Below are positions 6,527 to 32,515 of a DNA stretch of 32,515 bases, piece after piece. The notes under the pieces are model-generated. The model was not told where the DNA came from. It was given only the letters and a program-made list of their open reading frames with translations, and made no database searches. The position numbers were made by a program, and so were the translations under genes. Origin of the DNA: a virus; the IMG/VR virus record IMGVR_UViG_3300028859_000044, positions 1 to 32,515 of that record. One strand, given 5' to 3'. Each line of letters opens with the position of its first letter. The first letter of the stretch is position 1.

Positions 6527-6544
6527 ATATAGATAATTATATTT

Positions 6545-6948: not shown

Positions 6949-6963
6949 ATCCCTGGCGAGGAA

Positions 6964-6994: not shown

Positions 6995-6999
6995 CGTTA

Positions 7000-10128: not shown

Positions 10129-11716
<1,588 letters not shown>

Positions 11717-13449: not shown

Positions 13450-13467
13450 TTACTTCTGATTTTTTAT

Positions 13468-13546
13468 TGTAATGCTATATATTAATTAAAATATCTTATT
13501 TTTTTTATACTTCCCATTTTCATTATTGTAATGCTATATATTAATT
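13468..13546 (-). promoter_or_regulatory. Duplicated upstream element TGTAATGCTATATATTAATT
   Basis: Two copies (13468-13487 and 13527-13546), read on the minus strand as AATTAATATATAGCATTACA, upstream of the gene starting at 13449. Further copies lie at 14641, 17799, 17846, 18485 and 18533, always upstream of leftward tagged genes. Contains the A/T box TTAATATATA. Likely a phage promoter or translation-initiation element; activity is inferred. Confidence 0.55.
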
Positions 13547-13567
13547 AAAATATCTTATTTTTTATTA

Positions 13568-14626: not shown

Positions 14627-14640
14627 AATTTTATTTTTTT

Positions 14641-14660
14641 TGTAATGCTATATATTAATT
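14641..14660 (-). promoter_or_regulatory. Upstream element TGTAATGCTATATATTAATT
   Basis: Single copy, immediately 5' of the leftward gene starting at 14626; identical to the copies at 13468 and 13527. Confidence 0.5.
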
Positions 14661-14769
14661 AAAATATCTTATTTTTTTATACGAATATTAATGCTATGTA
14701 AAATAACCTAACTATTAAAGACGCGTCACTAAATAAAAATATCTGGTGAAAATCCTTAAAAATTTTTCC

Positions 14770-15130
14770 CGAAAAAATTTTTTAAATTTGATTCCTAACT
14801 AATTTATACAGTATATTAAACTATATCCAAAATTTTGAAATATATCTATAAAAAAACTCACAAAATACTCTAAAAATTTTTCCAAAAAAAAAATTGAAAT
14901 TCAAAATATATGACAAAATTACTTAAAAATTTTTCCAAAAAAAAAAATTCAAACTCAAATTTATTATAAATTTATTCTGAGTAAAATACTCTAAAAATTT
15001 TTCCAAAAAAAAAAATTCAAATTTGATATAATAATTCTTAAAAAAAAATTCAAACTTGATATAACAATTCATGAGAAATTTTTTCCAAAAAAAAAATTCA
15101 AACTTGATATAACAATTCATGAGAAATTTC
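14770..15130. repeat. Degenerate A-tract tandem repeats
   Basis: Four to five irregular copies of a unit made of AAAAATTTTTCC, a run of 8-11 A, TTCAAACTTGATATAA and, at the right end, CAATTCATGAGAAATTT. Open frames through it (e.g. 14923-15150 minus) only translate the repeats and are not genes. Phased A-tracts of this kind bend DNA and often mark origins or regulatory regions. Confidence 0.6.
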
Positions 15131-15159
15131 ATGGGATTAAATGTTAACAAATATTAACA

Positions 15160-15720
15160 ATTTTCGCCATGGCTGCCCTATACCTGTCTATACACCCTAT
15201 ACACGCAAGTCGTTCAACACCATCTCCAAGTCTACTACACAAGTGTTCATGAACATCCGACTGAAGTGTTCATTCGTGTTAACACTTAGTAAGTAGTCAT
15301 AGACTTTTGCGCGTCATGTTCTCCGACAAATGTTCATGAACTTCTTCGCTCCCTCTCTTCATGAACAATCTCGTGAAGAAGTCTATAAAAATTCACAATA
15401 GTTCTCTCATAGCTATCAGATACCTTAGCAGCACTAATTTATATTGATACCAGATACCATCCAGTGGGTAGCACCCCAGTAGTGCCCACATCATGGTGAA
15501 TAGTACTCATATCACAAGGTAGATATAAGTATATCATAGTAATAACTATTCATAGTATTATAATCAATGACATCAGTATAGTTATATGTATAAACTTATG
15601 AGTATAATAATCTACTGTATAGTATATGTATATACATATAAAGATATACTGTGTAGTGTATAGATAATAATACTATGAGTAGTGTAGATGTTAGTGTAGT
15701 GATCAATCAGTCTATGTGTA
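15160..15720. other. Non-coding palindrome-rich region, relatively G+C-rich
   Basis: No gene on either strand. Base composition is clearly less A+T-rich than the surroundings. It holds TGTTCATGAACA at 15244-15255, TGTTCATGAAC at 15331 and TTCATGAAC near 15359; an inverted pair ATAGACTT (15299) / AAGTCTAT (15379); GAACTTCTTC facing GAAGAAGTC; and a G+C-rich stem GTGGG...CCCAC near 15465. From ~15500 the sequence becomes an A/T/G mix of TATAGT-type words. Candidate replication origin or packaging/recombination site. Confidence 0.5.
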
Positions 15721-15724
15721 TAGA

Positions 15725-16038
15725 AAATGTCTATGACATTTGTGTGGACGTGTTGTCCTTATGATTGTCCTTATGATTGTCCTTATGATATGTTAAGGTA
15801 AATGTCTATGACATTTGTGTGGACGTGTTGTCCTTATGATTGTCCTTATGATTGTCCTTATGATTGTCCTTATGATTGTCCTTATGATTGTCCTTATGAT
15901 TGTCCTTATGATTGTCCTTATGATTGTCCTTATGATTGTCCTTATGATATGTTAAGGTAAATGTTTATGACATTTGCATGTAAGTATTGTCCTTATGATT
16001 GTCCTTATGATATGTTAAGGTAAATGTCTATGACATTT
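15725..16038. repeat. Higher-order repeat: palindrome plus (TGTCCTTATGAT)n
   Basis: Four copies of the palindrome AAATGTCTATGACATTT (15725, 15800, 15959 with one change, 16022). The first three are followed by a short linker (GTGTGGACGTGT or a variant) and perfect 12-bp tandem repeats TGTCCTTATGAT: 3 copies at 15754-15789, 10 at 15829-15948, 2 at 15988-16011. Each block ends ATGTTAAGGTA before the next palindrome. Iteron-like; the copy numbers suggest slippage. No coding potential. Confidence 0.8.
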
Positions 16039-16131
16039 ATGTGGACACGTGTGTACATATATTAAGTTATATATAATGGTAAGCACACATATGTTATAAT
16101 ATGTGGTCGCATTGTTATTATTTATATGTTA

Positions 16132-16210
16132 AACTTCTTAGTGTTGTTAATTACTTCTGGATGATGTATGGATATACCTATCTATTTTAGAAGTGTTTAA
16201 TATGTTTCAT
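16132..16210 (-). pseudogene. Collapsed LRR-type cassette remnant
   Basis: Starts ATG at 16210 in the 4-nt overlap with the gene at 16207-16395 and reads MKHIKHF before a stop (16187). Shortly after, another frame gives HHPEVINNTKKFNI and stops at 16132. The tag and the tail match those of LRR cassettes (compare YPEVKMSKQFNL at 24414), but the whole LRR body is gone. It marks the border between cassette genes and the non-coding repeat locus. Confidence 0.6.
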
Positions 16211-16395
16211 AGGTTAAATTTATTAGTCATTGAATTAAAGTACCATTCTTTATATCCATCAAGGTTACCATATGGTAAATAATTATCGTTACAATATAAT
16301 GTTTTTAATGAGTCAGGTAATTTTGGTAGTTCAGTTAATTCTTTATTAGAATAGAATATGAAGTCTACTTTTTCGAAGTGTTTAATATATTTCAT
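16207..16395 (-). CDS. Minimal tagged LRR protein
   Basis: 62 residues: tag MKYIKHFEKVDF, about one and a half LPX repeats (LTELPKLPDSLKTLYCNDN), cap LPYGNLDGYKEWYF, tail NKFNL. It is the smallest member of the LRR family, with the ends conserved and nearly all central units lost, as unequal recombination between units would produce. ATGA overlap with the gene upstream (16392). Confidence 0.65.
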   Translation of the reverse strand: MKYIKHFEKVDFIFYSNKELTELPKLPDSLKTLYCNDNYLPYGNLDGYKEWYFNSMTNKFNL

Positions 16396-17228
16396 AGGTT
16401 AAATTTATTTGCATTCATTTCTATTTTTAATTCTCCGTTTTTAGCTTTTTTTATATAATCATTAAGCTTATTTTTTACTTCTAATATTATTTTTATACGA
16501 TCTGTTATAATTTTTATTTCACCAGAATACATAGTACTACCAAATTGATTTTTTTGATTACCTTTTTCGTCATGATGATCAGGATTAAAATTCATTTTAT
16601 AATATCTTTTCATACTACGTATCATAGAATCTAAATCAATAATTTCATTATCTTTTGCAACTATAAAATTATAATCAGGAGTTAACCATATTTTATATTG
16701 CCATTGTCCTATCTGTGTTCCCCCAAAATTTATACTTTGTGGATCAACATCAGATGTATATAATAATTTTAAATCATAATTTAAATCTGTTATTGTTTCA
16801 AATTTACTAAGTCCCAAATTTTTTTTAGTTAAAACTAATCCGTTATTTATATTTTTGTCATATATTTTATAACTCATTATTATATGTTCCATATCCATTG
16901 TACTTAATATATTTCGATATTTATAATATAATTTTTCAAGTGTTTTATATAAATTTAATTTTTCTGTAGATAAATTTGAAGTCGAATTATAATGATTTAA
17001 TATATCATAAAAAAATGTTCTAACATCATTTATTATAGAATCTTCTTTTATAGTATGCTTAATATAGTTATTAGATAATTTTGATGAACTATTTGGTATA
17101 TTTTTTGATTTTTCATAATTATTTATATCTTTATACTCATCTATTATTTTACATATTTCATATTCGAATTTTGTAATATCATTATTACTTTCATATATAA
17201 ATTTAATAAAATCTTTAATTTTTCTCAT
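16392..17228 (-). CDS. Fusion of two tagged cassette proteins
   Basis: 278 residues. Start MRKIKDFIKFIYESNN (tag variant). Residues ~80-120 match the 11802 protein (NLSTEKLNLYKTLEKL). Then HIIMSYKIYDKNINNGLVLT (~113-133) matches the N-terminal tag and first residues of 13045/26242 (MITAFKLYENKLNKGLILT), so the second gene's tag now lies inside the protein. The rest is that family: YKIWLTPDYNFIVAKDNEII, long helix, NGELKIEMNANKFNL. Loss of the stop/start junction between two adjacent cassettes explains it. Confidence 0.7.
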   Translation of the reverse strand: MRKIKDFIKFIYESNNDITKFEYEICKIIDEYKDINNYEKSKNIPNSSSKLSNNYIKHTIKEDSIINDVRTFFYDILNHYNSTSNLSTEKLNLYKTLEKLYYKYRNILSTMDMEHIIMSYKIYDKNINNGLVLTKKNLGLSKFETITDLNYDLKLLYTSDVDPQSINFGGTQIGQWQYKIWLTPDYNFIVAKDNEIIDLDSMIRSMKRYYKMNFNPDHHDEKGNQKNQFGSTMYSGEIKIITDRIKIILEVKNKLNDYIKKAKNGELKIEMNANKFNL

Positions 17229-17329
17229 ATGATATATTATATTAATTATTTTTTTATTTATCTCACTATTAAAATTTATTACTCTTATATATTAATTATT
17301 TTTTTTATTTATCTCACTTAACATATAAC

Positions 17330-17362
17330 AAAAAATGTGAACCTTATCAGTTCACATTTTTT
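17330..17362. terminator. Bidirectional terminator, 13-bp perfect stem
   Basis: AAAAAATGTGAAC, loop CTTATCA, GTTCACATTTTTT. Ends the leftward ankyrin gene at 17420. An exact reverse-complement copy lies at 18006-18038. Confidence 0.85.
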
Positions 17363-17419
17363 ATATTAATGTCAATATTAATTAGTCTCCTAAAACACTA
17401 TGGTGAACATTACCAAAAA

Positions 17420-17779
17420 TTAAATGTTTATGTGGTATTTATCTTTAGCTCCATATTCTCTTAATAAAAGCAAAATAGCTGCAGATCCTGATGACAAAGC
17501 ATAATCAGTAGGAGTATAACCTTGTTCATCTTCTTCATTGACATCAGCACCAAGTTTAATTAAATCTTCTACTGCTTTTATATCTTGATGTTTAATTGCA
17601 TCTATTAATTCAGTTGAACCATTTTCTGGGCCAGCACCAGATACTCTATTTTTATGATATTTATAATCATATTCTGAATCAGTATTAAAACCAGCAATGT
17701 TTTCTCTGTTTTTATAAGCATAATCATATTCTGAATCAGTATCAGTATTAAAATCTTCAAACGTTTTTAATTTTTTCAT
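17420..17779 (-). CDS. Tagged ankyrin-repeat protein, copy 1
   Basis: 119 residues: tag MKKLKTFEDFNTDTD, an imperfect internal duplication (SEYDYAYKNREN / SEYDYKYHKNRV), then about two ankyrin repeats (GSTELIDAIKHQDIKAVEDL; GYTPTDYALSSGSAAILLLL). It is a near-identical duplicate of 18057-18467 up to residue ~90. The C-terminus here was replaced (KDKYHINI), and the old end (ATTAGTCTCCTAAAACACTA) survives as untranslated sequence at 17380-17402. Ankyrin repeats mediate protein binding; partner unknown. Confidence 0.75.
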   Translation of the reverse strand: MKKLKTFEDFNTDTDSEYDYAYKNRENIAGFNTDSEYDYKYHKNRVSGAGPENGSTELIDAIKHQDIKAVEDLIKLGADVNEEDEQGYTPTDYALSSGSAAILLLLREYGAKDKYHINI

Positions 17780-17798
17780 ATTTTTAATTTTTTTTTTT

Positions 17799-17865
17799 TG
17801 TAATGTTATATATTAATTAAAATATATTATTTTTTATTTTTTTTTTGTAATGCTATATATTAATT
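17799..17865 (-). promoter_or_regulatory. Two copies of the TGTAATGYTATATATTAATT element
   Basis: 17799-17818 and 17846-17865, just upstream of the ankyrin gene starting at 17779. Followed at ~17880 by TTTATTTACCGAACATTATTGTGGTG, written in two parts TTTATTTACCGAACATT and ATTGTGGTG, a copy of the outer edge of the giant palindrome at 18566. Confidence 0.5.
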
Positions 17866-17971
17866 AAAAAAATTCATTTTTTATTTACCGAACATTATTG
17901 TGGTGTATCAAATTTATTAACATTATAAGAATATAAGATTAATGGTACCAGAAGAAATTTAAATATTTAAA

Positions 17972-18004
17972 ATGAGTAAACTCACTAACAAATTTAACAT
18001 ATAA
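17972..18004 (+). other. Tail remnant reading MSKLTNKFNI on the plus strand
   Basis: ATG AGT AAA CTC then ACTAACAAATTTAACATATAA gives NKFNI plus stop, the cassette tail, in the opposite orientation to the neighbouring genes. Too short to be a gene; it marks a former plus-strand cassette border. Confidence 0.35.
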
Positions 18005-18005
18005 C

Positions 18006-18038
18006 AAAAAATGTGAACTGATAAGGTTCACATTTTTT
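18006..18038. terminator. Bidirectional terminator, inverted copy of 17330-17362
   Basis: AAAAAATGTGAAC, loop TGATAAG, GTTCACATTTTTT. Stem as in the 17330 copy, loop exactly reverse-complemented, while the flanks on both sides are direct duplicates. Confidence 0.85.
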
Positions 18039-18056
18039 ATTTAATGTCAATATTAA

Positions 18057-18467
18057 TTAGTCTCCTAAAACACTATGGTGAATATTACTAGAATAATGAG
18101 AATGTCCATAACCAGTATTAGCACCACCATCTATTAATAATTTCTTTATAGCAAAATAAGTATCATCATTAATATCGGTTAACCAATCAATAGCAGTTTT
18201 ACCTTGTTTATCTTCTTCATCTACATAAGCGCCAAGTTTAATTAACTCTTTTACTGCTTCTATATCTTTATGTTTAACTGCATCTATTAATTCAGTTGAA
18301 CCATTTTCTGGGCCAGCACCAGATACTCTATTTTTATGATATTTATAATCATATTCTGAATCAGTATCAGTATTAAAACCAGCAATGTTTTCTCTGTTTT
18401 TATAAGCATAATCATATTCTGAATCAGTATCAGTATTAAAATCTTCAAACGTTTTTAATTTTTTCAT
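18057..18467 (-). CDS. Tagged ankyrin-repeat protein, copy 2
   Basis: 136 residues: tag MKKLKTFEDFNTDTDSEY, ankyrin units GSTELIDAVKHKDIEAVKEL and GKTAIDWLTDINDDTYFAIK, ending SNIHHSVLGD. It retains the original C-terminus whose DNA is left untranslated in copy 1. The ankyrin start, promoter elements and terminator are all duplicated, giving a ~0.7-kb tandem unit (compare 17330-17880). No KFNI tail, unlike most tagged genes. Confidence 0.75.
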   Translation of the reverse strand: MKKLKTFEDFNTDTDSEYDYAYKNRENIAGFNTDTDSEYDYKYHKNRVSGAGPENGSTELIDAVKHKDIEAVKELIKLGAYVDEEDKQGKTAIDWLTDINDDTYFAIKKLLIDGGANTGYGHSHYSSNIHHSVLGD

Positions 18468-18484
18468 ATTTTTAATTTTTTTTT

Positions 18485-18552
18485 TGTAATGTTATATATT
18501 AATTAAAAAAATTCATTTTTTAATTTTTTTTTTGTAATGCTATATATTAATT
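18485..18552 (-). promoter_or_regulatory. Two copies of the TGTAATGYTATATATTAATT element
   Basis: 18485-18504 and 18533-18552, upstream of the ankyrin gene starting at 18467, matching the pair at 17799-17865. Confidence 0.5.
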
Positions 18553-18565
18553 AAAAAAATTCATT

Positions 18566-19233
18566 TTTTATTTACCGAACATTACTGTGGTGACTTCAAT
18601 AATTTAACAAAAATTAACTCAAATATATTAGGTAGAATGAATATAAAGCGTTATCTTTGTCTTGATAACATGGACGTAGGATCATGGAGCCCGAGAGCGG
18701 GGTAATACGTAAATGTTAAAAAACTTCTTATTACTTAATGTTAACTTAACAATATACAAATCATTAACAGTTATAGCAGGAAATTAGTATTATACATAAT
18801 ATGTTATTATGCGATTTATGTTAATACATTTATAAATCATTGATACATAGTTATTTAAAATTGAATAATTATATGCATTTTATATACCGTATTAACATCT
18901 ATAATTATGCGTTAATACTGTATATTTCCTGTATATCATTGTAAGTATTTGATTTAAAAGGTGTTGTACATTTGTAAAGAGTTAAATACTTAACAAGTTT
19001 AAAAAGTGTAGGTTAAAACAGTTAAAGTTATAACATTTAAAAATATGTGTTAACATCTACGTAATGCCCCGCTTTGGAGAATATACTCCAGTCATTACAC
19101 TGTCAATCACAATACAAAGATAATACTTTATATTGATTCTACCTAATAATATGTAGTTAAATATCATTAAATCTTTTATAAGTTAAGTATTGTTAATTTT
19201 AACATATCACCACAGTAATATTCGGTAAATAAA
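18566..19233. other. ~670-bp imperfect giant palindrome, no gene
   Basis: Outer ends: TTTACCGAACATTACTGTGG near 18571 faces CCACAGTAATATTCGGTAAA near 19210. Next: ATTAGGTAGAATGAATATAA (~18627) faces the complement of ATATTGATTCTACCTAATAA (~19130). Next: GAGAGCGGGGTAATACGTAA (~18693) faces ACGTAATGCCCCGCTTTGG (~19058). Innermost: GCAGGAAATTAGTATTATAC (~18777) faces GTATATTTCCTGTATATC (~18917). Both arms carry TATCTTTG pointing inward. The arms are 70-85% similar by eye, so the whole could fold as one long hairpin. Candidate MITE-like element, replication origin or paired non-coding RNAs. Confidence 0.65.
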
Positions 19234-19264
19234 TTTTAATATATATGAATAAAAAAAATATAAT

Positions 19265-20707
19265 ATGAGTGATATAATATATTTGGCAAGTGAAGAATGG
19301 GTGACTAATATAATTAGTGGATTAACTGGTCCTACTGGTTCTACTACTGGATTTGATGGTATTGGTACTCAATATTTAAGTGTATTTGGAAAAAGTGATC
19401 CTAACACAAATGGAATAGAATTACAGAATGTATATAATGTTGCAAAGGCTTTAGTGCCTACATTATATAATCAAGTTAATATAATTATATATCCTGGATA
19501 TTATGGAATGTCTTCTAAGTTAATATTAGATACTCCGTATATAAATTTAATATCATCTACTGGAAATATAGATGTTGAAATAGGCTATGATGGTACTAGT
19601 GTAAATTCAGATTATATTACATTATATGGAATCAAATTTCAAGATGGTGGAATAACTATTAATGGAAGCTACCCAAATTTATATATTGAAAATTGTGATC
19701 TTTTTGAAGGAAATATATCAAATACAGGCAGAGAACTTTCAGGAACATTTAAAAATATTAGTGGAAATTCTAATTTGTTTAATGGCTATTCTAAATATTC
19801 TGGAATATTTGAAAATATAGATATGGTAGGTGGACCAATTTTTGGTGGAAGTAACGATGCAGAATTTTCTGGTATATTTAAAAATATAACGATTGGTGGG
19901 GGTGGATCGTTACAAGGAAATATATTCTCAGGTACTTTTAATAATATATCAATAATAAATAATGCGGAAGGATTTAATGGAACTCTTTTTTCTGGTACAT
20001 TTAGCGATATATCTACTTATGTTGGTTTTTATGCCCCATATTGGTCTACTGGAACTACTGAATATAGTGGAACTTTTGATAATATAGTTGGGACTTCTTC
20101 TATTTTTATTTCTAGTTCTAATTATTCTGGTATATTTAAAAATATAAAATCTCCAGTTGCATTTGAATCTGGAAATTATACAGGTGAATTTTTTGATTGC
20201 ATAATAGACAATGGATTTAATAGTAATAATTTAGGAGGACAATATTATAATTGTGTAACTCAAGGCGGATTTAATGGTACTATGTATGGTACGTGTTACA
20301 ATTGTATTGGTAATTTTAGTAGTGTTCAATCAGGAGCAATATTATATAATTGTGTAGGTGCTGGTTCTATTAACGTACAATCAGGAGCAACATTATATAA
20401 TTGTGTAGGTGTTAATTCTTTTAATGATGCAACATTATATAATTGTATTGATGGTAATGGTAAAATTATTGGTGGACCAACAATTAGTGGAGTTTATTAT
20501 CAAGAAGTGACAGGTGTTACTTCAGTGACAGTTTCATTAGATTCACCATTAAATAATACTGGATATACTATAAATATAACACCAGCATCATTAGATTCAG
20601 CTATTCAATATTATATAACTAATTTAACATTGTCTAGTTTTGATATTATATATGTGAGTACTATAACTGGTATAATTTCATTTTATTGGATTATAAATAA
20701 GTCATAA
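19265..20707 (+). CDS. Right-handed beta-helix phage fibre/spike-like protein
   Basis: 480 residues. Start MSDIIYLASEEWVTNIISG shares the LASExWV attachment motif with 5087 and 7336. A short collagen-like GPTGST follows, then a pectate-lyase-type beta-helix: NVYNVAKALVPTLYNQVNII, LYIENCDLFEGNIS, repeated SGTFKNIS / SGIFKNI units, and later ATLYNCVG turns (~345-400). The C-terminal ~75 residues (VTSVTVSLDSPLNNTGYTIN) form a separate cap. Such proteins are typical trimeric tail spikes or fibres; no catalytic site is recognisable. Upstream lies the giant palindrome; downstream a strong terminator. Confidence 0.75.
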   Translation: MSDIIYLASEEWVTNIISGLTGPTGSTTGFDGIGTQYLSVFGKSDPNTNGIELQNVYNVAKALVPTLYNQVNIIIYPGYYGMSSKLILDTPYINLISSTGNIDVEIGYDGTSVNSDYITLYGIKFQDGGITINGSYPNLYIENCDLFEGNISNTGRELSGTFKNISGNSNLFNGYSKYSGIFENIDMVGGPIFGGSNDAEFSGIFKNITIGGGGSLQGNIFSGTFNNISIINNAEGFNGTLFSGTFSDISTYVGFYAPYWSTGTTEYSGTFDNIVGTSSIFISSSNYSGIFKNIKSPVAFESGNYTGEFFDCIIDNGFNSNNLGGQYYNCVTQGGFNGTMYGTCYNCIGNFSSVQSGAILYNCVGAGSINVQSGATLYNCVGVNSFNDATLYNCIDGNGKIIGGPTISGVYYQEVTGVTSVTVSLDSPLNNTGYTINITPASLDSAIQYYITNLTLSSFDIIYVSTITGIISFYWIINKS

Positions 20708-20727
20708 TTATTTAAAAAATGTAATTA

Positions 20728-20759
20728 AAAACTCAGTTAAAATTAATTAACTGAGTTTT
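20728..20759. terminator. Terminator after the beta-helix gene
   Basis: AAAACTCAGTTAA, loop AATTAA, TTAACTGAGTTTT: a 13-bp perfect stem. The inner sequence resembles that of the 3271-3294 terminator behind the other fibre gene. Confidence 0.85.
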
Positions 20760-20763
20760 TAAT

Positions 20764-20775
20764 TTTAATATATAA
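20764..20775 (+). promoter_or_regulatory. A/T box TTTAATATATAA before a tagged gene
   Basis: It lies 4 nt before the ATG at 20780, directly after a terminator, so it must serve the new transcript or its translation start. The same 12-mer, or nearly the same, precedes 27760 and 23610 and is encoded by the KFNI-stop codons of many upstream genes. Confidence 0.6.
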
Positions 20776-20779
20776 CTGC

Positions 20780-21058
20780 ATGAAATATATTAAAGAATTT
20801 GAAAGTAATACTGATAAATATGTAATAGTAACAGATGGTAAAAGAGGATTAGCCGTAGCTATTGATTGTGAAAGTGATCTACAACCTTTTCGTTATATAC
20901 CAGCTATTAATGGCCGTCCAGTTAAAACATATACATTAAAAGAAGCTAAAAAAGCAATATCTAAATTTATTATAGAATATAATAATACGTATAAATTTAG
21001 AATTATGCCAATAGATGATATCAATTTATTAATAAATGTAAATAAATTTAACCTATGA
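20780..21058 (+). CDS. Tagged cassette protein
   Basis: 92 residues: tag MKYIKEFESNTDKYVIV, body with TDGKRGLAVAIDCESDLQPF and a helical YTLKEAKKAISKFIIEYNN, tail NVNKFNL. Resembles a compact alpha/beta domain; no family recognised. ATGA overlap with the next gene through AAATTTAACCTATGAAATAT. Confidence 0.65.
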   Translation: MKYIKEFESNTDKYVIVTDGKRGLAVAIDCESDLQPFRYIPAINGRPVKTYTLKEAKKAISKFIIEYNNTYKFRIMPIDDINLLINVNKFNL

Positions 21059-21327
21059 AATATATTAAAAAATTTGAAGATATATATTTAAGTGATAGTA
21101 AATATAAAGTAGGAGATTATGTTATATCAACTACTAAATACAATAGAAATAAAAGTAATATAAAAGGTATCATATATGAAATTAAATATAATAAACGTAA
21201 TAATTTTTTCGTCTATTATATAAAAGAATATATATCATTTTTAGAAGAAGATGATTTAAGATTAATGACTCCAGATGAAATAGAACAATATGAACTTGAA
21301 AAATTAACTGATAAATTTAATATTTAA
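21055..21327 (+). CDS. Tagged SH3-like KVGDYV-family protein
   Basis: 90 residues: tag MKYIKKFEDIYLSDSKYKVG, then KVGDYVISTTKYN and IKGIIYEIKYN, a divergent member of the SH3-like family found at 23610, 26655-27603 and 28798-29480. The usual YDNIP and YWSKNKEEL blocks are replaced by YYIKEYISFLEEDDLRLM. Tail LTDKFNI. Second gene of a two-gene operon. Confidence 0.65.
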   Translation: MKYIKKFEDIYLSDSKYKVGDYVISTTKYNRNKSNIKGIIYEIKYNKRNNFFVYYIKEYISFLEEDDLRLMTPDEIEQYELEKLTDKFNI

Positions 21328-21330
21328 TAA

Positions 21331-21440
21331 GTTCGGTCAGGGAGAAAATGAACTTTTTTTAAAATGTCTAATATTTAATCAATATTAGACATTTTAAATT
21401 TCTAATAAATTTATTCAAAGTTCGGTCAGGGTGAAAGTGA
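21331..21440 (+). promoter_or_regulatory. Paired motif GTTCGGTCAGGGwGAAA, copies 1 and 2, around a hairpin
   Basis: GTTCGGTCAGGGAGAAAATG at 21331 and GTTCGGTCAGGGTGAAAGTG at 21420, 89 bp apart. Between them a perfect stem AATGTCTAATATT / AATATTAGACATT (about 21361-21393) looks like a terminator for 21055-21327. A related pair at 23390/23478 is 88 bp apart. G-rich and conserved against an A/T background, so probably functional: regulatory site, small RNA or recombination edge. Confidence 0.5.
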
Positions 21441-21480
21441 TATTTTTATTGATTTATACTAAATATTCAATCTATTTTAC

Positions 21481-21488
21481 TATCTTTG
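21481..21488 (+). promoter_or_regulatory. Bacteroidota-type -7 box TATCTTTG
   Basis: 20 nt before the ATG at 21509; same context (TATCTTTGTAAATTAAAT) as at 24523. Confidence 0.7.
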
Positions 21489-21496
21489 TAAATTAA

Positions 21497-22303
<807 letters not shown>

Positions 22304-22334
22304 ATAAAATTATTTTGAAATATAAATGTTGATA

Positions 22335-22622
22335 TTATATATTAAATTGTTTAGCATTATTTCTTATTATATAATCATCAATATCTTTTGATGTGGCTTT
22401 TCTTATTATTAAAGATCTTGGTAATTATATATGATTTATTATCCTTATTTATATCAGTTATTAACCATTTACCTGTGATAAATTGAAGTATTTTACCAAC
22501 CTTTTTATCTTGAGAAAATTCGTTATTTTCAGTATTAAAATAATAATCATATAATACAATATTACCTATACTTGGATTATATTTGTTGATTTTATTATCT
22601 TCAAATGCTCTTCTTTTTTTAT
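22335..22622 (-). pseudogene. Decayed tagged SH3-like cassette gene
   Basis: The junction AAATTTAACATAT is followed by AAAAAAAGAAGAGCATTTGA, i.e. MKKRRAFED with the G of the ATG deleted. The body reads YNPSIGNIVLYDYYFN, DKKVGKILQFITGKWLITDI, then a frameshift near YIITK after which KATSKDIDDYIIRN, NAKQFNI and a stop at 22335 follow. Two lesions (start, frame), tag and tail still readable. It makes up most of the 22304-22618 gap. Confidence 0.65.
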
Positions 22623-22937
22623 ATGTTAAATTTATTTGTTTGTAATATTAATTCTAATTCTTCTTTATTTTTACTCCAATATTCTATATCATCACGTTTA
22701 AATAATATTACATTTATATTGTTTATTTTTTTATCAAATATATCAGCAGGTATATTATCATATGTTATTGCATAAGGATAATATCTCGGTATATAATCAT
22801 TACGAATAATCTTACCTATTTTATTTTTAATAAAATTACCTTCATGAGTAGTATGACCGACCTTGATTGCAAATAACATAATCCCCTATTTCTGGGTTAT
22901 CTTCATTCATTTCATATAATCTAAAATTTGTTATCAT
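22619..22937 (-). pseudogene. Tagged SH3-like KVGDYV-family gene with one frameshift
   Basis: Original ATG at 22937: MITNFRLYEMNEDNPEIGDY then VICNQGRSYYS and a stop in the wrong frame. The rest of the family (NFIKNKIGKIIRNDYIPRYY, YAITYDNIPADIFD, KRDDIEYWSKNKEELELILQ, TNKFNI) continues in the next frame, open from 22879 to 22619. One indel near 22845-22865 explains it. It may be expressed as the C-terminal part only or be inactive. TTAATATATAAATG stands 5 nt before the start. Confidence 0.7.
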
Positions 22938-22979
22938 ACATTTATATATTAATATATTTTTATTAAAAATCACCTTGTG

Positions 22980-23389
22980 AATTTTAATTAAATTGTGTAT
23001 GTTATTTTAACTGTCATTTTGTCATAGTTAATAATAGTTATCTATCTGTATATCAATTAGTTATCTTTAAAAAAAGTTAATTAGTTGATTAGTAATTGAT
23101 TAACTTCAAATTTAGGCGTATTATTTTAGATCGTTAAAAAAAGTGTGGACCACCCTTACTGGTTCATGTTTTTATTTTTACTTTTTAATATATTAATATT
23201 TAATTTATACAGTAAAAATAATGATTACAACATATATTACTCATATTTCAATCAAATTTGCACATTTATAGTATAAATTTATCAGTATATTTTTGCTCTT
23301 TTTTTATAATATTAATAAATTTGTTTATTTATCTGGTTATCAAATGATTGTATCATTTTAAATGATATTTGAATAATTTAGTATATAAA
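22980..23389. other. Intergenic region without a gene
   Basis: No credible frame on either strand. A stem with one wobble around GGACCA CCCTTAC TGGTTC (~23143-23162) flanked by AAAAA and TTTTT could be a terminator. TTTAATATATTAATATT at ~23190 resembles the A/T box but no start follows. Confidence 0.4.
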
Positions 23390-23498
23390 GTTTAGTGAGG
23401 GAGAAAGTAAGTTTTTTATAAATATCTGATAGGTGTTGTATATTAAGGATTTTCAAATTATGATAAATATTTTGGAAGTTTAGTGGGGGAGAAAGTGA
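23390..23498 (+). promoter_or_regulatory. Paired motif GTTTAGTGrGGGAGAAAGT, copies 3 and 4
   Basis: GTTTAGTGAGGGAGAAAGTA at 23390 and GTTTAGTGGGGGAGAAAGTG at 23478, 88 bp apart, related to the pair at 21331/21420. Each copy is followed at once by T-runs. Lies ~110 bp upstream of the tagged gene at 23610. Confidence 0.5.
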
Positions 23499-23594
23499 TA
23501 TTTTTTGAAAAAATCTTGAAAAGGCATGAAAAAACATGATATGGTTGGTATGCGTCTTCAGTTGTGTTGGCTTGATTTTTTAAGTAAATATAAA

Positions 23595-23605
23595 TTAATA
23601 TATAA
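23595..23605 (+). promoter_or_regulatory. A/T box TTAATATATAA
   Basis: 4 nt (GAGT) before the ATG at 23610; it decides the start, since an in-frame ATG at 23526 would add 28 residues before the tag. Confidence 0.55.
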
Positions 23606-23609
23606 GAGT

Positions 23610-23906
23610 ATGAAATTTATAAAAATGTTTGAGTATAATGAGGATAAGCCAAAGGTAGGAGATTATGTTATATGTTTACATGGTGTTTCTAAGGAAGAAA
23701 CTAAATTTCTTCATGATAAGATAGGTAAGATAATTAGGTATTATGGTACTATGGCTTTTGATTATGGAATATATTATGACAATATACCTTTAGGATTATG
23801 TACTGGTAGAGATGAAATAGCACTTCGTGGTATGGATATTAGTTATTGGAGTAATGATAGAGAAGAATTAGAGATGATACTTAATGCAAATAAATTTAAC
23901 ATATAA
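23610..23906 (+). CDS. Tagged SH3-like KVGDYV-family protein
   Basis: 98 residues from 23610: tag MKFIKMFEYNEDKPKVGDYV, then ICLHGVSKEETKF, HDKIGKIIRYYG, YGIYYDNIPLGLC, DISYWSNDREELEMILNANK and KFNI. Typical member: an SH3/KOW-like barrel start (KVGDYVIC), a GKI strand, the YDNIP block and a C-terminal helix before the tail. It is followed two bases later by the LRR gene at 23908. Confidence 0.7.
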   Translation: MKFIKMFEYNEDKPKVGDYVICLHGVSKEETKFLHDKIGKIIRYYGTMAFDYGIYYDNIPLGLCTGRDEIALRGMDISYWSNDREELEMILNANKFNI

Positions 23907-23907
23907 T

Positions 23908-24414
23908 ATGAAGTATATAAAGAAGTTTGAGAGTATTACAACATTATTAAATTGTTCAAATAGACAATTAACTGAGTTACCAGAGTTATTTTATGGATTA
24001 GAAAAATTATATTGTAGTTTTAATGATTTAACTGAGTTACCTGAGTTACCTGAGACTTTACTTGAATTATTTTGTTCTAATAATAATTTACCTGAGTTAC
24101 CTGAGTTACCTAAAAAATTAACGATATTATTATGTAATAATAATAATATAATTGAATTACCTGAATTACCTGATACATTAGATCAATTATATTGTGAAGG
24201 AAATGATTTAACTGAACTACCTGAATTACCTAATAAATTACGAAGATTAGATTGTAGTAATAATAATTTAAGTAAATTACCGATTTTACCTGAATCATTA
24301 GTAGAATTAAATTGTAAATTATGTAATTTACCTTATAAAGATTTGGATGGATATAATGAATGGTTTGATAAAACTTATCCAGAGGTAAAAATGTCTAAAC
24401 AATTTAACCTATAA
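23908..24414 (+). CDS. Tagged LPxLP leucine-rich repeat protein
   Basis: 168 residues from 23908 (MKYIKKFESITTLLNCSNRQ); an in-frame ATG at 23884 lies inside the upstream gene and is rejected. About six LPX units (LTELPELPETLLELFCSNNN), cap LPYKDLDGYNEWFDKTYPEV, tail MSKQFNL. Leu-Pro-Glu-Leu-Pro is encoded by a nearly uniform TTACCTGAGTTACCT word, favouring unit gain and loss. Confidence 0.8.
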   Translation: MKYIKKFESITTLLNCSNRQLTELPELFYGLEKLYCSFNDLTELPELPETLLELFCSNNNLPELPELPKKLTILLCNNNNIIELPELPDTLDQLYCEGNDLTELPELPNKLRRLDCSNNNLSKLPILPESLVELNCKLCNLPYKDLDGYNEWFDKTYPEVKMSKQFNL

Positions 24415-24522
24415 ATTAAATAACTTAAACATTTTAATAATTTTACTTAAAGTTAAGTTATGAAGATAGTAATATTTATGAATAATATAATATCATTTTA
24501 CCTATTATTGAAATATTTTTAT

Positions 24523-24530
24523 TATCTTTG
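24523..24530 (+). promoter_or_regulatory. Bacteroidota-type -7 box TATCTTTG
   Basis: 18 nt before the ATG at 24549. Confidence 0.7.
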
Positions 24531-24533
24531 TAA

Positions 24534-26142
<1,609 letters not shown>

Positions 26143-26171
26143 AAAAAGAAGAACTAAATGTACTTCTTTTT
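26143..26171. terminator. Bidirectional terminator between convergent runs
   Basis: AAAAAGAAG, 11-nt loop, CTTCTTTTT, just after the stop at 26142. Confidence 0.75.
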
Positions 26172-26188
26172 ATTTTTAAATATTTCTA

Positions 26189-26245
26189 TTAATTCTTTCT
26201 AACCTGTTTCTTATAATGATCTTTAAATGTTTTTATATATTTCAT
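26189..26245 (-). CDS. Tag-only minigene
   Basis: ATG at 26245 in a 4-nt overlap with the stop of 26242-26658; 18 codons (MKYIKTFKDHYKKQVRKN), stop at 26189. It carries only the tag and a short basic end. Its end (YKKQVRKN) resembles the end of the remnant at 27616 (YNKNKVRNN). It is last in the leftward operon, like 11729-11800. Probably a cassette stump; could be a translated micropeptide. Confidence 0.45.
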   Translation of the reverse strand: MKYIKTFKDHYKKQVRKN

Positions 26246-26658
26246 ATGTTAAATTTTTTAGCATTCATTTCTATCTCTAATTTTCCATTTTTAGCTTTTT
26301 TTATATAATTAGTAAGCTCATTTTTTACTTCTTTTAATATACTTAAAATTTCTATATAATATTCTTTTGTGTCACCGTATGTATCATAACCTAATTTAAT
26401 AAGTTCTTTATATCTATTTTTTCTATTAATTATTACAGAATCTAAATTAATAATATAATTATCTACTGTAACTATAAAATTATAATCAGGAGTTAACCAT
26501 ATTTTATATGAGTCTGATCCTTGACCTGGTTCAGGGATTGATGTATATAAAAGTTTTATATCATAATCTAAATCTTTTATATTATAAACTGGCAATTCTT
26601 CACATAATACCAAACCCTTATTTGATACATTCTCATACAATTTAAATTTTGTTATCAT
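26242..26658 (-). CDS. Tagged cassette protein, 'YxIxLTxDYNFIV' family
   Basis: 138 residues: tag MITKFKLYENVSNKGLVLCE, YDIKLLYTSIPEPG, YKIWLTPDYNFIVTVDNYII, a long helix with YYIEILSILKEVKNELTNYI and NGKLEIEMNAKKFNI. Same family as 13045 and the C-terminal half of 16392; the tag form MITxFKLYE is shared with 13045 and with its three upstream neighbours. ATGA overlap upstream with 26655. Confidence 0.7.
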   Translation of the reverse strand: MITKFKLYENVSNKGLVLCEELPVYNIKDLDYDIKLLYTSIPEPGQGSDSYKIWLTPDYNFIVTVDNYIINLDSVIINRKNRYKELIKLGYDTYGDTKEYYIEILSILKEVKNELTNYIKKAKNGKLEIEMNAKKFNI

Positions 26659-26981
26659 ATATTAAATTTATTTGCTTGCAATATTTGTTCTAATTCTTTT
26701 TTATCTTTACTCCAATATAATATATCTTCAGAGTTAGTATAATAATTATTATCACCTTCTAAATTAGTATAATAATTAATATTACCTCCAAATTTATAAT
26801 TATAATTTATTGTGTATTTATATGTAGAATCATAATTTATTATCTTACCTATATTATTAATTACAGCGTTTCTGAAAAGTTTATGAGATCCAATTAAAAA
26901 TTTACCGCCGCAAATGACATAGTCACCAACTTCAGGCACTCCATCATTAAGTTTTTCATATAATTTAAAATTTGTTATCAT
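26655..26981 (-). CDS. Tagged SH3-like KVGDYV-family protein
   Basis: 108 residues: tag MITNFKLYEKLNDGVPEVGD, VGDYVICGGKFLIGS, NNIGKIINYD, with a local duplication (INYYTNLEGDNNYYTNSED) in place of the YDNIP block, then ILYWSKDKKELEQILQANKF and the KFNI tail. The duplicated segment suggests recent slippage. One of three consecutive paralogues (26655-27603). Confidence 0.7.
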   Translation of the reverse strand: MITNFKLYEKLNDGVPEVGDYVICGGKFLIGSHKLFRNAVINNIGKIINYDSTYKYTINYNYKFGGNINYYTNLEGDNNYYTNSEDILYWSKDKKELEQILQANKFNI

Positions 26982-27295
26982 AGATTAAATTTATTTGCTT
27001 GCAACATTTGTTCTAATTCTTCTTTATTTTCAGACCAATATATTATATTGTTTCTTTTAACTCCGATAGTTCTTTTTCCTTTAATTATATTATCATATAA
27101 TCTATCTGGTATGTTATCATATGTTATAGCATGAGTATATATCTTATCATAATTTATATTAAGAATTTTACCTATTTTATTTTTAAAAAAATTATCATGA
27201 TTATTATTTTCATGATCGCTACAAATGACATAGTCACCTATATTTGGAGCACCATTATCATTAAGTTTTTCATATAATTTAAAATTTGTTATCAT
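26978..27295 (-). CDS. Tagged SH3-like KVGDYV-family protein
   Basis: 105 residues: tag MITNFKLYEKLNDNGAPNIG, GDYVICSDHENNNHDNF, NKIGKILNINYDK, HAITYDNIPDRLYDNIIKGK, NIIYWSENKEELEQMLQANK, FNL. 4-nt overlaps (ATGA) on both sides; the junction AAATTTAATCTATGATAACA shows how a KFNL end and an MITNF start share bases. Confidence 0.7.
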   Translation of the reverse strand: MITNFKLYEKLNDNGAPNIGDYVICSDHENNNHDNFFKNKIGKILNINYDKIYTHAITYDNIPDRLYDNIIKGKRTIGVKRNNIIYWSENKEELEQMLQANKFNL

Positions 27296-27603
27296 AGATT
27301 AAATTTATTTGTTTGTAATATGGCTTCTAATTCTTCTTTATCCTTACTCCAATATAATATGTCTTTACGTTTAAATAATATAGTAGCAATTTTATTAACT
27401 CTACGATCAATTAAACTATCTGGTATATTATCATATGTTATATAATAAGGATAATAATTACTTTTATCATCTTTAAGAATTTTACCTATATTATTTTCTA
27501 CAAATTCATCACTACTAAAGTCACTTTTTGAACAAATGACATAGTCACCTACTTCAGGCATTCCATCATTAAGTTTTTCATATAATTTAAAATTTGTTAT
27601 CAT
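27292..27603 (-). CDS. Tagged SH3-like KVGDYV-family protein, first of a four-gene operon
   Basis: 103 residues: tag MITNFKLYEKLNDGMPEVGD, YVICSKSDFSSDEF, NNIGKILKDD, YYITYDNIPDSLIDRRVNK, DILYWSKDKEELEAILQTNK, FNL. Its tag-proximal DNA is nearly identical to that of the two following genes, consistent with tandem duplication followed by divergence of the middle. The operon reads 27603 to 26189. Confidence 0.7.
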   Translation of the reverse strand: MITNFKLYEKLNDGMPEVGDYVICSKSDFSSDEFVENNIGKILKDDKSNYYPYYITYDNIPDSLIDRRVNKIATILFKRKDILYWSKDKEELEAILQTNKFNL

Positions 27604-27615
27604 AATATTTCATAT

Positions 27616-27702
27616 TTAGTTATTTCTAACTTTATTTTTATTATAGCTATCAGCTAAATCAGATAAAAATTCGCCGTATCTAGATAAAGCGTTTATTACA
27701 TT
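27616..27702 (-). pseudogene. Headless cassette remnant
   Basis: A minus-strand frame without a usable start reads NVINALSRYGEFLSDLADSY then NKNKVRNN and a stop at 27616. An in-frame TAA lies just before. Its end resembles that of the minigene at 26189. Possibly the body of a tagged gene that lost its tag. Confidence 0.35.
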
Positions 27703-27743
27703 TTCTTATTTTATATATTAATTTAATTTTTTAAATTTAATTT

Positions 27744-27759: not shown

Positions 27760-28440
27760 ATGAAATATTTGAAAAAATTTGAATATATAACATCAAAGGT
27801 AATAGATTATATTAATAAAGGATTAACTGAGTTACCTGAGTTACCAAGTTCATTAAAAGAATTGACTTGTTATTGGAATACGTTAACTAAGTTACCTGAG
27901 TTACCATACGAGTTAGAATATTTATATTGTTATGATAATATTTTAAAATCATTACCTGAATTACCAAATACATTAAAAGAAGTATATTGTTATAATAATA
28001 TTTTAACTGAATTACCAAAATTACCAGGTTCATTAAAAGAATTATGCTGTGGTATTAATTTTTTAACTAATTTACCAGAGTTACCAAAATCATTAGAAAT
28101 ATTATATTGTGAAGATAATAATTTAACTAAATTGCCAGAGTTAAATGACTCATTAATAAAAATAAATTGTTCTAGTAATAAATTAATAAATTTACCTAAA
28201 TTACCCAATACATTAAAAGTATTAATTTGTTCTAATAATTATTTAACTGAGTTGCCTAAATTACCTGATAATTTAGAAAAACTAGAATTATATGAAAATA
28301 ATTTAAGTGAGTTACCTAAGTTACCTGAGTCATTAAAATATTTAAGTTGTGAAGGTAACAATTTACCTTATGATAATTTGAAAGAATATAAAGAATGGTT
28401 ATATAAAAATCACAAGGAATATATAAAAAATTTAGCATGA
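27760..28440 (+). CDS. Tagged LPxLP leucine-rich repeat protein
   Basis: 226 residues: tag MKYLKKFEYITSKVIDYINK, about nine LPX units (LTELPELPSSLKELTCYWNT; LPELPNTLKEVYCYNNILTE), cap LPYDNLKEYKEWLYKNHKEY, end IKNLA. The KFNI/L tail is missing and the next start follows only five bases later, so tail loss can be tolerated. Cys precedes the Asn ladder in almost every unit. Probable intracellular protein-binding solenoid. Confidence 0.8.
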   Translation: MKYLKKFEYITSKVIDYINKGLTELPELPSSLKELTCYWNTLTKLPELPYELEYLYCYDNILKSLPELPNTLKEVYCYNNILTELPKLPGSLKELCCGINFLTNLPELPKSLEILYCEDNNLTKLPELNDSLIKINCSSNKLINLPKLPNTLKVLICSNNYLTELPKLPDNLEKLELYENNLSELPKLPESLKYLSCEGNNLPYDNLKEYKEWLYKNHKEYIKNLA

Positions 28441-28444: not shown

Positions 28445-28801
28445 ATGAAATATATAAAGAAGTTTGAAAAAATCAGTTTAGAAACATTTTTCAGAAAATT
28501 GGAAACATTTTTCAATGAAATTAAACTAAAAAATCATAAAACTAAAACATATAAAAATCCATATACTGTTCAAATATATTATAATGAATTTGGTATATTT
28601 ACTGTAGAAGATCAGATTATGTTTTATGAAAATAATGGAGAAGAACTATATCCATCATTAAATAGTTATATTGCGAGTAAAATACCTGGATCAGATGATA
28701 AATATTTAAATTTATATGATAAACAGAATAATCCAAATTATGTTATGTTTAGTAAAGAAGAATATGAATTATTTAAATATACAAATAAATTTAACATATG
28801 A
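28445..28801 (+). CDS. Tagged cassette protein, unknown
   Basis: 118 residues: tag MKYIKKFEKISLETFFRK with an immediate duplication (LETFFRK / LETFFNE), middle YTVQIYYNEFGIFTVEDQIM, end KEEYELFKYTNKFNI. No family recognised. Four-base ATGA overlap with 28798 through AAATTTAACATATGAAAATA. Confidence 0.65.
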   Translation: MKYIKKFEKISLETFFRKLETFFNEIKLKNHKTKTYKNPYTVQIYYNEFGIFTVEDQIMFYENNGEELYPSLNSYIASKIPGSDDKYLNLYDKQNNPNYVMFSKEEYELFKYTNKFNI

Positions 28802-29118
28802 AAATATTAAAATTTAATGAGAATTCAAATAAAAATGAGCCAAAAGTTGGTGATTATGTTATATGCTATTATTCAGATAATGATGTTGTCAATGATACTA
28901 TCAATAATAAAATTGGTATTATAGTTAAAATTAATTATGATAATAATTATCCATTTAAAGTTAAATATAATATTTCGTATAGGGATAGATCAATAACTAG
29001 AGAATTTAAATTAAAAAATTCTAATAGTTTTGAATTTAATAGAAGTGAAATAATACATTTTAGTGAAGATAAAGATGAATTAGAAATAATATTAAACTCA
29101 AATAAATTTAACATATGA
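28798..29118 (+). CDS. Tagged SH3-like KVGDYV-family protein
   Basis: 106 residues: tag MKILKFNENSNKNEPKVGDY, VICYYSDNDVV, NKIGIIVKINYDNNYPFKVK, FNRSEIIHFSEDKDELEIIL, NSNKFNI. The YDNIP block is replaced by YNISYRDRSIT. ATGA overlaps on both sides within the operon 27760-29480. Confidence 0.7.
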   Translation: MKILKFNENSNKNEPKVGDYVICYYSDNDVVNDTINNKIGIIVKINYDNNYPFKVKYNISYRDRSITREFKLKNSNSFEFNRSEIIHFSEDKDELEIILNSNKFNI

Positions 29119-29480
29119 AGTACTTGAAAAGATTTGAAATGAATGAAAATAAAATAGATGTTGATGATTATGTAATATTGAATGATGATATTGATTATCA
29201 AAGTTTAGATGGTAATAATCTAAGAGATTATTTAAATTCTCATATAGGTAAAATATATAGAATAAGAACCCGAAGTAGAAATGATAAAATCATTCCAATA
29301 TATGATATAGAATATAAAAATGCACCTGATGATATAAGAAAATTCTTAAGTTTTACTATCAATGATGATTTTTCTGAGAGTTATCTTGAACGGAGTAGAG
29401 ATGCTTATGAAATCAAATATTGGAGTAAGAATAAAGAAGAATTAGAATTAATATTAAAATCAAATAAATTTAATATTTAA
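29115..29480 (+). CDS. Tagged SH3-like KVGDYV-family protein, longer variant
   Basis: 121 residues: tag MKYLKRFEMNENKIDVDDYV (VGDYV has become VDDYV), SHIGKIYRIRTRSRNDKIIP, YDIEYKNAPDDIRKF, YEIKYWSKNKEELELILKSN, KFNI. Last gene of the operon; its 3' end overlaps by 11 bases the convergent CLFEQD gene at 29470-29895. Confidence 0.7.
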   Translation: MKYLKRFEMNENKIDVDDYVILNDDIDYQSLDGNNLRDYLNSHIGKIYRIRTRSRNDKIIPIYDIEYKNAPDDIRKFLSFTINDDFSESYLERSRDAYEIKYWSKNKEELELILKSNKFNI

Positions 29481-29946: not shown

Positions 29947-30456
29947 TTATATGTTAAATTTTTCAGCGTCAATTATTTCTGGATAAGTTTTAGCAAACCA
30001 CACTCTATATTCTTCTAAATTAGTAAAAGGAATATCTTTATCAGGACAATATATAGATATTAATGATTCTGGTAAGATTATTAATTTATTAGTCAACGTA
30101 TGAAAATCAAAAGATAAATATTCTAATCCTTCAGGTAAAATAGGTAATTCTGTTAAATTATTATCATAACAAGCTAATTTTTCTAATGTTTTTGGTAATT
30201 TTGGTAATTTAGTTAATTTATTTCCTACACAATATAATTCTATTAATCCACTTGGTAATTCTGGTAGTTCAGTTAATTTATTCGCCATGCATTGTAATTC
30301 TATTAATTCACTTGGTAATTCTGGTAGTTCAGATAAAAAATTACCAGAGCAATATAATTTTTTTAAGTTTTTTGATAACTTTGGCAATTTAGTTAATTTT
30401 AAATATGCGTAAGATAATGTTGCTTCTATGCGTTCAAAGTATTTAATATATTTCAT
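29947..30456 (-). CDS. Tagged LPxLP leucine-rich repeat protein
   Basis: 169 residues: tag MKYIKYFERIEATLSYAYLK, five to six LPX units (LSELPELPSELIELQCMANK; LTELPELPSGLIELYCVGNK), a divergent unit (FDFHTLTNKLIILPESLISI), cap IPFTNLEEYRVWFAKTYPEI, tail DAEKFNI. TTTAATATATAGCTAT precedes the ATG. Confidence 0.8.
   Translation of the reverse strand: MKYIKYFERIEATLSYAYLKLTKLPKLSKNLKKLYCSGNFLSELPELPSELIELQCMANKLTELPELPSGLIELYCVGNKLTKLPKLPKTLEKLACYDNNLTELPILPEGLEYLSFDFHTLTNKLIILPESLISIYCPDKDIPFTNLEEYRVWFAKTYPEIIDAEKFNI

Positions 30457-30553: not shown

Positions 30554-31177
<624 letters not shown>

Positions 31178-31188: not shown

Positions 31189-32515
<1,327 letters not shown>

Follow-up and report, generated by a model that had tools for sequence, protein, structure and literature searches.

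Protein cassettes with shared ends in viral DNA: exchange at coding junctions and a predicted role as capsid cargo

The DNA analysed in this study, 32,515 nucleotides from the virus record IMGVR_UViG_3300028859_000044 (positions 1 to 32,515; referred to at its full length as the window), carries a large set of genes whose products share a short N-terminal peptide (tag) and a C-terminal tail around unrelated bodies. These genes behave as exchangeable cassettes, and they probably encode cargo delivered by the capsid of a huge phage with a T4-type head.

Shared ends in the window and in related phages

At 26655-27603 on the minus strand, three tandem genes encode SH3-like proteins of 108, 105 and 103 aa (26655-26981, 26978-27295 and 27292-27603), all beginning with MITNFKLYEKLND (MITNFKLYE) and ending with NKFNI in the first and NKFNL in the other two. 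Neighbours overlap by 4 bp (ATGA), the middle gene on both sides. A 39-bp repeat of the tag DNA (ATGATAACAAATTTTAAATTATATGAAAAACTTAATGAT), which is exact and a putative recombination substrate, lies on the same strand at 27565-27603 (copy 1), 27257-27295 (copy 2) and 26943-26981 (copy 3). The adjacent cassette (MITKFKLYE...KKFNI, 138 aa; 26242-26658, minus strand) has an unrelated body and the tag kind of its three neighbours.

ORF calls on both strands between 11.8 and 30.5 kb gave 21 open genes with a recognisable tag and one broken gene, close to the about 19 genes with unrelated bodies that the sequence-only reading had counted. Its further claim that the ends stay fixed was borne out for the sharing of ends, whereas strict fixity was not found, as several tag kinds occur and vary with neighbourhood. 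Shared ends were present on four LRR genes and a short LRR remnant, two ankyrin genes, SH3-like genes and several bodies of unknown type. The tail motif [KNQRSG][FY]N[ILMV] formed the C-terminus of 18 of the 52 window ORFs, compared with 0.04 expected by chance as estimated from internal 4-mers of ORFs.

LRR cassettes with both ends are MKYIKYFE...NQFNI (232 aa; 12153-12851, minus strand), MKYIKKFE...KQFNL (168 aa; 23908-24414, plus), MKYIKYFE...EKFNI (169 aa; 29947-30456, minus) and the short MKYIKHFE...NKFNL (62 aa; 16207-16395, minus). Further SH3-like cassettes on the plus strand are MKFIKMFE...NKFNI (98 aa; 23610-23906), MKILKFNE...NKFNI (106 aa; 28798-29118), MKYLKRFE...NKFNI (121 aa; 29115-29480) and, assigned by body clustering, MKYIKKFE...DKFNI (90 aa; 21055-21327). 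Also on the plus strand are MKYIKEFE...NKFNL (92 aa; 20780-21058) and MKYIKKFE...NKFNI with an unknown body (118 aa; 28445-28801). The body family of 26242-26658 recurs on the minus strand in MITAFKLYE...KNFNI (134 aa; 13045-13449) and in MRKIKDFIKFIYES...NKFNL (278 aa; 16392-17228), whose start resembles the T4 CTS. Variant tails were found in two minus-strand genes, the ankyrin cassette MKKLKTFEDF...HINI (119 aa; 17420-17779) and MKSIKLFEEF...NFNM (352 aa; 13568-14626). The tail is absent from three tag genes: it has been lost from an ankyrin cassette MKKLKTFEDF (136 aa; 18057-18467, minus) and an LRR cassette MKYLKKFE (226 aa; 27760-28440, plus), and the third is the tag-like gene MKKLKYFDNF (112 aa; 11802-12140, minus). 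In the broken SH3-like gene (22619-22973, minus), the tag MITNFRLYE lies in another frame than the body, and the NKFNI tail is kept.

Other repeats were also seen in the window. TTTTGTAATGCTATATATTAATTA or its complement occurs in seven copies at 13465-18553, on the minus strand just upstream of tag operons, and looks like a shared promoter element; the operon starts below these copies lie at 13449, 14626, 17779 and 18467. At 15741-16023, 12-bp repeats (TTGTCCTTATGA) form an array whose flank is repeated as well. A 36-nt repeat (CTGTCAGACACTACYAAATTAAATGTATATACACC) is present in more than 35 copies (10908-11716, 21815-22276, 24855-25210, 25517-25680, 30866-31160, 31507-31735 and 32037-32395) with unrelated 30-nt inserts in between (mean GC 34%, some 50%), its arrays lying downstream of several copies of one gene family. 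Its geometry is CRISPR-like, or it represents in-frame 22-aa repeats with a variable 10-mer; one insert shares 28 of its 30 bases with a gene of the related genome G002 (L135, minus strand) in the same reading sense.

For the spread of the system, viral contigs were scanned for DNA coding for MKYxKxFE-type starts, which gave at least 117 stretches; among the matches listed, many came from contigs of 180-350 kb. Tag genes of class A have no tail and often continue FExF..E (F/Y10 in 96 of 128, E13 in 49 of 128), and those of class B, the class of the window, have no such extension and end [AST][NKDE]K[FY]N[IL]. In class B records, the tail motif stood at the end of 82 of 418 ORFs in G002, 103 of 563 in G001 and 43 of 388 in G009 (0.3-0.5 expected in each), compared with 0-1 ORFs in the control phages G008, G017 and G018, which bear tags without the tail system. 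Further tags seen together with the tail were MKIKRFNE, MKTYLQYIKEA, MKNFIEFINES and MKTYQQFNE. In bacterial genomes, a scan for the tail-tag junction pattern found no arrays and only single, isolated matches that are probably due to chance; thus, there was no sign of a host-genome system. Among the open papers searched, which leave out most subscription journals, none describes this system.

For comparison of the bodies, the ends of 298 tail genes from seven records were trimmed, giving 97 body groups of which 65 were singletons. The largest group comprises 96 members with an SH3-like barrel (AlphaFold2 pLDDT 85), the model of which had weak matches in the PDB (best E 0.01), mainly to PsaE and Sm/Lsm barrels. 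An iterated SH3-like profile was discarded after it had kept growing and finally matched unrelated tag proteins via the tag alone; because of this drift, tree and clusters were built with the ends trimmed. Among 94 representatives, ankyrin (12) and LRR (2) models accounted for nearly all Pfam matches, and a PADLOC scan of 94 tail proteins yielded mainly ankyrin-type models, which is of little meaning. In both structure models obtained, the bodies were folded and the tag (pLDDT 55 and <50) and tail (56 and 67) were least certain, as is expected if the end peptides are exposed.

Dovetailed junctions and exchange of cassettes

Consecutive tail genes overlapped by 4 bp (ATGA) in 41 of 55 pairs in G002 and in 51 of 73 in G001, compared with 25 of 271 and 38 of 354 other gene pairs, respectively. 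The overlap with the next gene explains the A-ending last codons, terminal isoleucine in G002 tail genes being encoded by ATA in 38 of 38 cases. For the tail asparagine, AAC was used in 42 of 82 G002 tail genes compared with 0 of 37 others at the same position (G001: 51 of 103 and 6 of 52), and this silent preference shows an extra nucleotide-level constraint or homogenisation. Untagged SH3-like tandem arrays of G002 (L126-L137; 58313-62214, 180862-182910 and 201219-203016; MKKQNINVGDKLLCK; MFKVGDKVVCID) are also interlocked: many consecutive genes overlap by about 7-28 nt, the C-terminus being the next start in another frame, and the last gene loses the shared C-terminal end.

The concentration of 4-bp overlaps at tail-gene pairs, the AAC bias together with the invariable ATA, and the C-termini of the untagged arrays would all be understandable if the ends were expression signals, with the tail-stop/start-tag DNA serving translational coupling or initiation and the shared peptides arising as by-products. 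We regard this explanation as quite improbable. Of the 82 G002 tail genes, 20 lack a nearby same-strand follower and keep the tail all the same, and the tail residues vary conservatively (F/Y, I/L/V/M) by different codons, so that the peptide itself is also kept. Since tail genes without a follower keep their tail and the last genes of the untagged arrays lose theirs, the comparison argues for a protein-level role of KFNI/KFNL. Also, phage PAU and the class A phages retain the tag pattern in other sequence contexts.

The sequence-only reading had regarded the genes as exchangeable cassettes, and this was supported from several sides. The same body was found with different ends: no fewer than three kinds of tag occur in the 96-member SH3-like family, and at a single orthologous locus (G002 #158 / G001 #378), both flanks align and the tag alone differs (MKYIKEYE vs MITKFKIFE). 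The same locus was also found with different bodies: whole genes have been gained, lost or replaced between orthologous neighbours of G001 and G002, for example by a three-gene insertion, and where G002 has one LRR gene, G001 has three genes unrelated to it. Identity at several replaced junctions was ~86% up to the tail and ~90% over tail, stop and tag, and it fell to ~33%, the background level, immediately beyond the tag, compared with 67-90% throughout at control junctions; similarity thus ends at the tail-tag junction. A comparison of G002 with G003/G005 was uninformative, these phages being nearly identical.

Bodies, tags and tails do not follow one phylogeny. On the poorly resolved tree of SH3-like bodies, the last tail residue required 29 changes compared with a shuffled mean of 30.0 (no signal) and the tag kind 20 compared with 25.1 (weak signal). 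Adjacent genes with unrelated bodies had the same tag kind in 65 of 94 pairs compared with 40.4 after shuffling (0/2000), and no clear neighbourhood effect was found for tag position 4 (I/L) or the last tail residue. In ortholog pairs, the terminal codon (ATA/TTA) was concordant in 18 of 39 cases, compared with 338 of 423 for silent ATA/ATT in the same bodies (P=1e-5). For the choice between AAC and AAT in the tail, agreement among orthologs fell short of significance (P=0.15) in a small sample, and it was therefore not used as proof of exchange.

The sibling contig L318 is identical to the window over 14025-27296 (13,272 bp, no mismatch) and 99.94% identical in the 9.5 kb before 14025. Identity stops at 27296, next to copy 2 of the tag repeat, and the window has one extra cassette, 27292-27603, which is flanked by exact 39-bp tag repeats (27565-27603 and 27257-27295). 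Upstream of this cassette, a tag gene (MKHIKNINEF..., 111 aa) is intact in L318 and reduced to a 3' remnant in the window (27604-27706, minus strand). The difference, which lies within the stretch 26655-27603 singled out by the sequence-only reading, is one cassette gained or lost by putative recombination between tags, an assembly error being possible as L318 ends 269 bp beyond.

Ordinary divergence of paralogues from one ancestral gene, with the ends kept by selection and no exchange, would agree with the residual signal of tag kind on the SH3-like tree and with the finding that most orthologous G001/G002 loci keep the same body. It is hardly credible given that the folds are unrelated (LRR solenoid, SH3 barrel, ankyrin), that tags follow neighbourhood and not body, and that cassettes were seen to be replaced, a tag to be swapped on orthologous bodies and a single cassette to be gained or lost between tag repeats; the L318 difference contradicts it, unless due to assembly error.

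As for the mechanism of exchange, junction identities, the L318 difference and the 39-bp repeats place the exchange boundaries in short shared sequence. No hairpin was found at tail-tag junctions, where folding was no better than in shuffles (z -0.96 to 1.28), and the tyrosine recombinase PF00589, detected in 14 of 14 controls, was not found in eight tail-bearing records, which are fragments. A RecA/UvsX-type recombinase is present in G012 and G009 and was not found in the six other fragments. Since neither integrase nor hairpin was found, homologous recombination at tail-tag junctions is the likely mechanism; the exchange shows as a pattern at these junctions, and the enzyme is inferred.

The tag, head modules and the predicted role

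In T4, the internal proteins IPII and IPIII begin with MKTYQEFIAE and IPI with MKTFKEF; their bodies are unrelated, and they share no tail. IPII and IPIII have ~32 nt of tag DNA in common, beyond which they are unrelated. According to mutational work, the T4 tag acts in targeting mainly via residues 4 and 7 and in processing via residues 8 and 10 (PMC9026906). A short N-terminal peptide common to otherwise unrelated proteins, a feature of T4-type internal proteins, is present here as well, and in MKYIKxFE the hydrophobic residue 4 (I/L4) and the aromatic residue 7 (F/Y7) match the T4 targeting residues (Y4 and F7 in IPIII). All 143 strict tail-bearing members (MK[YH][IL]KxFE) except one with V4 have I/L4 and F/Y7, both of which the strict pattern itself requires; in MITxFKLYE and MKIKRFNE, the key residues are shifted by one. 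The prohead-protease site [IL]xE after the tag was not enriched in tail-bearing genes, with 9 of 125 (7%) compared with 157 of 906 untagged genes (17%); in the tail-less class, it was found in 31 of 128. Because of this lack of enrichment, the tail-bearing genes are not classed as T4 CTS proteins. By analogy, it is nevertheless rather probable that their products work like them, a function of the tag that the sequence-only reading had not proposed.

Gene positions also link the tags to the head. The T4-like contig G017 has the order portal (PF07230), tag gene, protease (PF03420), tag gene and capsid (PF07068). Among tail-bearing contigs, L280, L285 and L287 have T4-type portal, core protease and Gp23 capsid genes (the portal in L287). 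In L280 and L285, the two contigs on which this positional link rests for tail-bearing phages, a gene with tag and tail directly precedes the prohead protease, followed by the capsid gene, in L280 with one opposite-strand gene between; L285 and the tail genes of L033 lie on one contig. Most tail genes lie outside the head module, in operons scattered genome-wide on both strands. Among the 295 genes of phage PAU, 20 begin with MKT[LI]xxLYE or a near variant of it. They are clustered around head genes, and their tags mark four of five records named internal capsid protein as well as the named scaffold (P=7.5e-5; the basis of naming is unstated in the record). The PAU internal capsid protein gp70 has no tag.

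For identification of the phage group, tblastn of tag proteins of the window and of G002/L104 against annotated phages gave no match, and only structural proteins and one class A family formed bridges to known phages. Searches for PF03420 and PF07230 in large tail-bearing contigs were negative because these are probably fragments without head module, and the head module of tail-bearing phages was reached via the capsid protein of LR756501. In G002, one structural protein (1144 aa) has matches in the 735-kb LR756501 (41% over 97%) and also in 634-642-kb phages and in Lak, Tenacibaculum and Sphingomonas (PAU) phages. The window has gene families in common with G002 and no head gene within it. 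From these relatives, we infer that it comes from a huge phage, kin of the 735-kb and Lak megaphages, whose head is of T4 type, and that it is a fragment of its genome. LR756501 carries MIKKF[KR][LI]FE tags, with no tail within the stretches read.

Further features were seen in these records. In LR756501.1 at ~221.5-223.7 kb (L198), small tandem genes with unrelated starts have the C-terminus KLIDKMLNE in common and form another shared-end family. At ~474.3-476.3 and 482.1 kb (L197), several short proteins contain DPYGEE[DI]WD soon after the tag (MIKKFRIFENDELDPYGEEIWD), which is possibly an extra signal in the 735-kb phage. In the window, 3305-4960 and 5087-8205 encode an NSIGSNF-repeat protein, likely a beta-solenoid fibre, and also two proteins with fibrobacter-type C-terminal domains as in Bacteroidota phages.

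Taken as capsid cargo, the system would operate as follows. By analogy and gene position, the first ~8-9 residues (MKYIKxFE, MITxFKLYE or MKIKRFNE) may attach their protein to the prohead core. As cargo, the unrelated bodies (SH3-like barrels, ankyrin and LRR repeats, unknown folds) would be carried in the head and most likely be ejected with the DNA to act on the host or its defences, and the last four residues (KFNI/KFNL) are a putative second shared handle. The last codon and stop A-TGA overlap the next ATG, so that a near-identical junction of ~40 bp joins consecutive cassettes; homologous recombination between such junctions would duplicate, delete and swap bodies with frame and ends preserved. 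Against capsid cargo speak the lack of enrichment of [IL]xE, the up to 100 cargo genes per genome, far above the three of T4, the unstated basis of the PAU annotation with its untagged gp70, and the small number of tail-bearing contigs, two, behind the head-position link. A more specific version, which we put forward tentatively and hold to be possible at less than even chances, is a two-ended cargo standard: an N-terminal capsid-targeting and a C-terminal docking peptide on up to a fifth of the genes, whose interlocking A-TGA cassettes recombine freely and would thereby provide one huge-phage clade with a shufflable library of co-packaged effectors.

Alternatively, the ends could be intracellular sorting, docking or degradation signals of early host-takeover or anti-defence factors, directed to one partner of host or phage origin, to the membrane or to a replication compartment. 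The scattering of the operons over the genome and both strands, the fast-evolving bodies mostly without Pfam match, the short amphipathic helix that the tag could form (H4-11 in the model) and a tail without known counterpart in T4 internal proteins agree with this. We consider it unlikely, as matching tags occupy the prohead-core positions in the T4-type head modules of two phage groups and are also present on the proteins of PAU annotated as internal capsid proteins.

Should the tag be a packaging label, as the capsid-cargo reading predicts, a short pattern would point to the proteins that hundreds of uncultured huge phages are likely to inject; most of these proteins have no recognisable domain, and hypothetical proteins would thus be listed as candidate anti-defence effectors. 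In the dovetailed coding ends, one sequence would then clearly have been shaped for two uses, as protein signal and as recombination substrate, and these ends would reveal a route to quick renewal of the effector set of a phage. Thereby, the purpose of most accessory genes in such phages becomes testable.

Comparison with known systems

The T4 proteins IPI, IPII, IPIII and Alt with their CTS are similar in having a short N-terminal peptide on unrelated bodies, which begins M-K and is hydrophobic at position 4 and aromatic at position 7, and T4-type portal, protease and capsid genes occur in the related phages. Unlike the three internal proteins of T4, there are tens to ~100 genes per genome here, with a second, C-terminal shared end and dovetailed tandem arrays; [IL]xE is not enriched in the tail-bearing genes, and packaging of their products is a prediction. 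The internal capsid proteins of Sphingomonas (Sphingobacterium) phage PAU have MKTISKLYE-type tags, close to MITNFKLYE of the window, and their genes are clustered around those for portal, protease, scaffold and capsid, whereas they number 20, several with an LNEAS-type extension, and have no KFNI tail.

With respect to exchange, Arbiol et al. in 2010 reportedly described mobile regulatory cassettes of T4-type phages (PeSLs), in which short intergenic repeats promote the exchange of variable genes by homologous recombination. In contrast to those promoter/stem-loop elements, the repeats here are the coding ends of proteins. Integron gene cassettes likewise form arrays of exchangeable small genes with common ends; here, the common ends lie inside reading frames, with neither a junction hairpin nor, in eight tail-bearing records, a tyrosine recombinase, and the cassettes are not integron-like. 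A related arrangement occurs in the same phages: the untagged SH3-like arrays (G002, 58.3-62.2, 180.9-182.9 and 201.2-203.0 kb) also combine a variable middle with shared interlocking ends and have a VGDxhxC motif, whereas their C-terminus merely reads the following gene's start in a second frame and disappears in the last gene.
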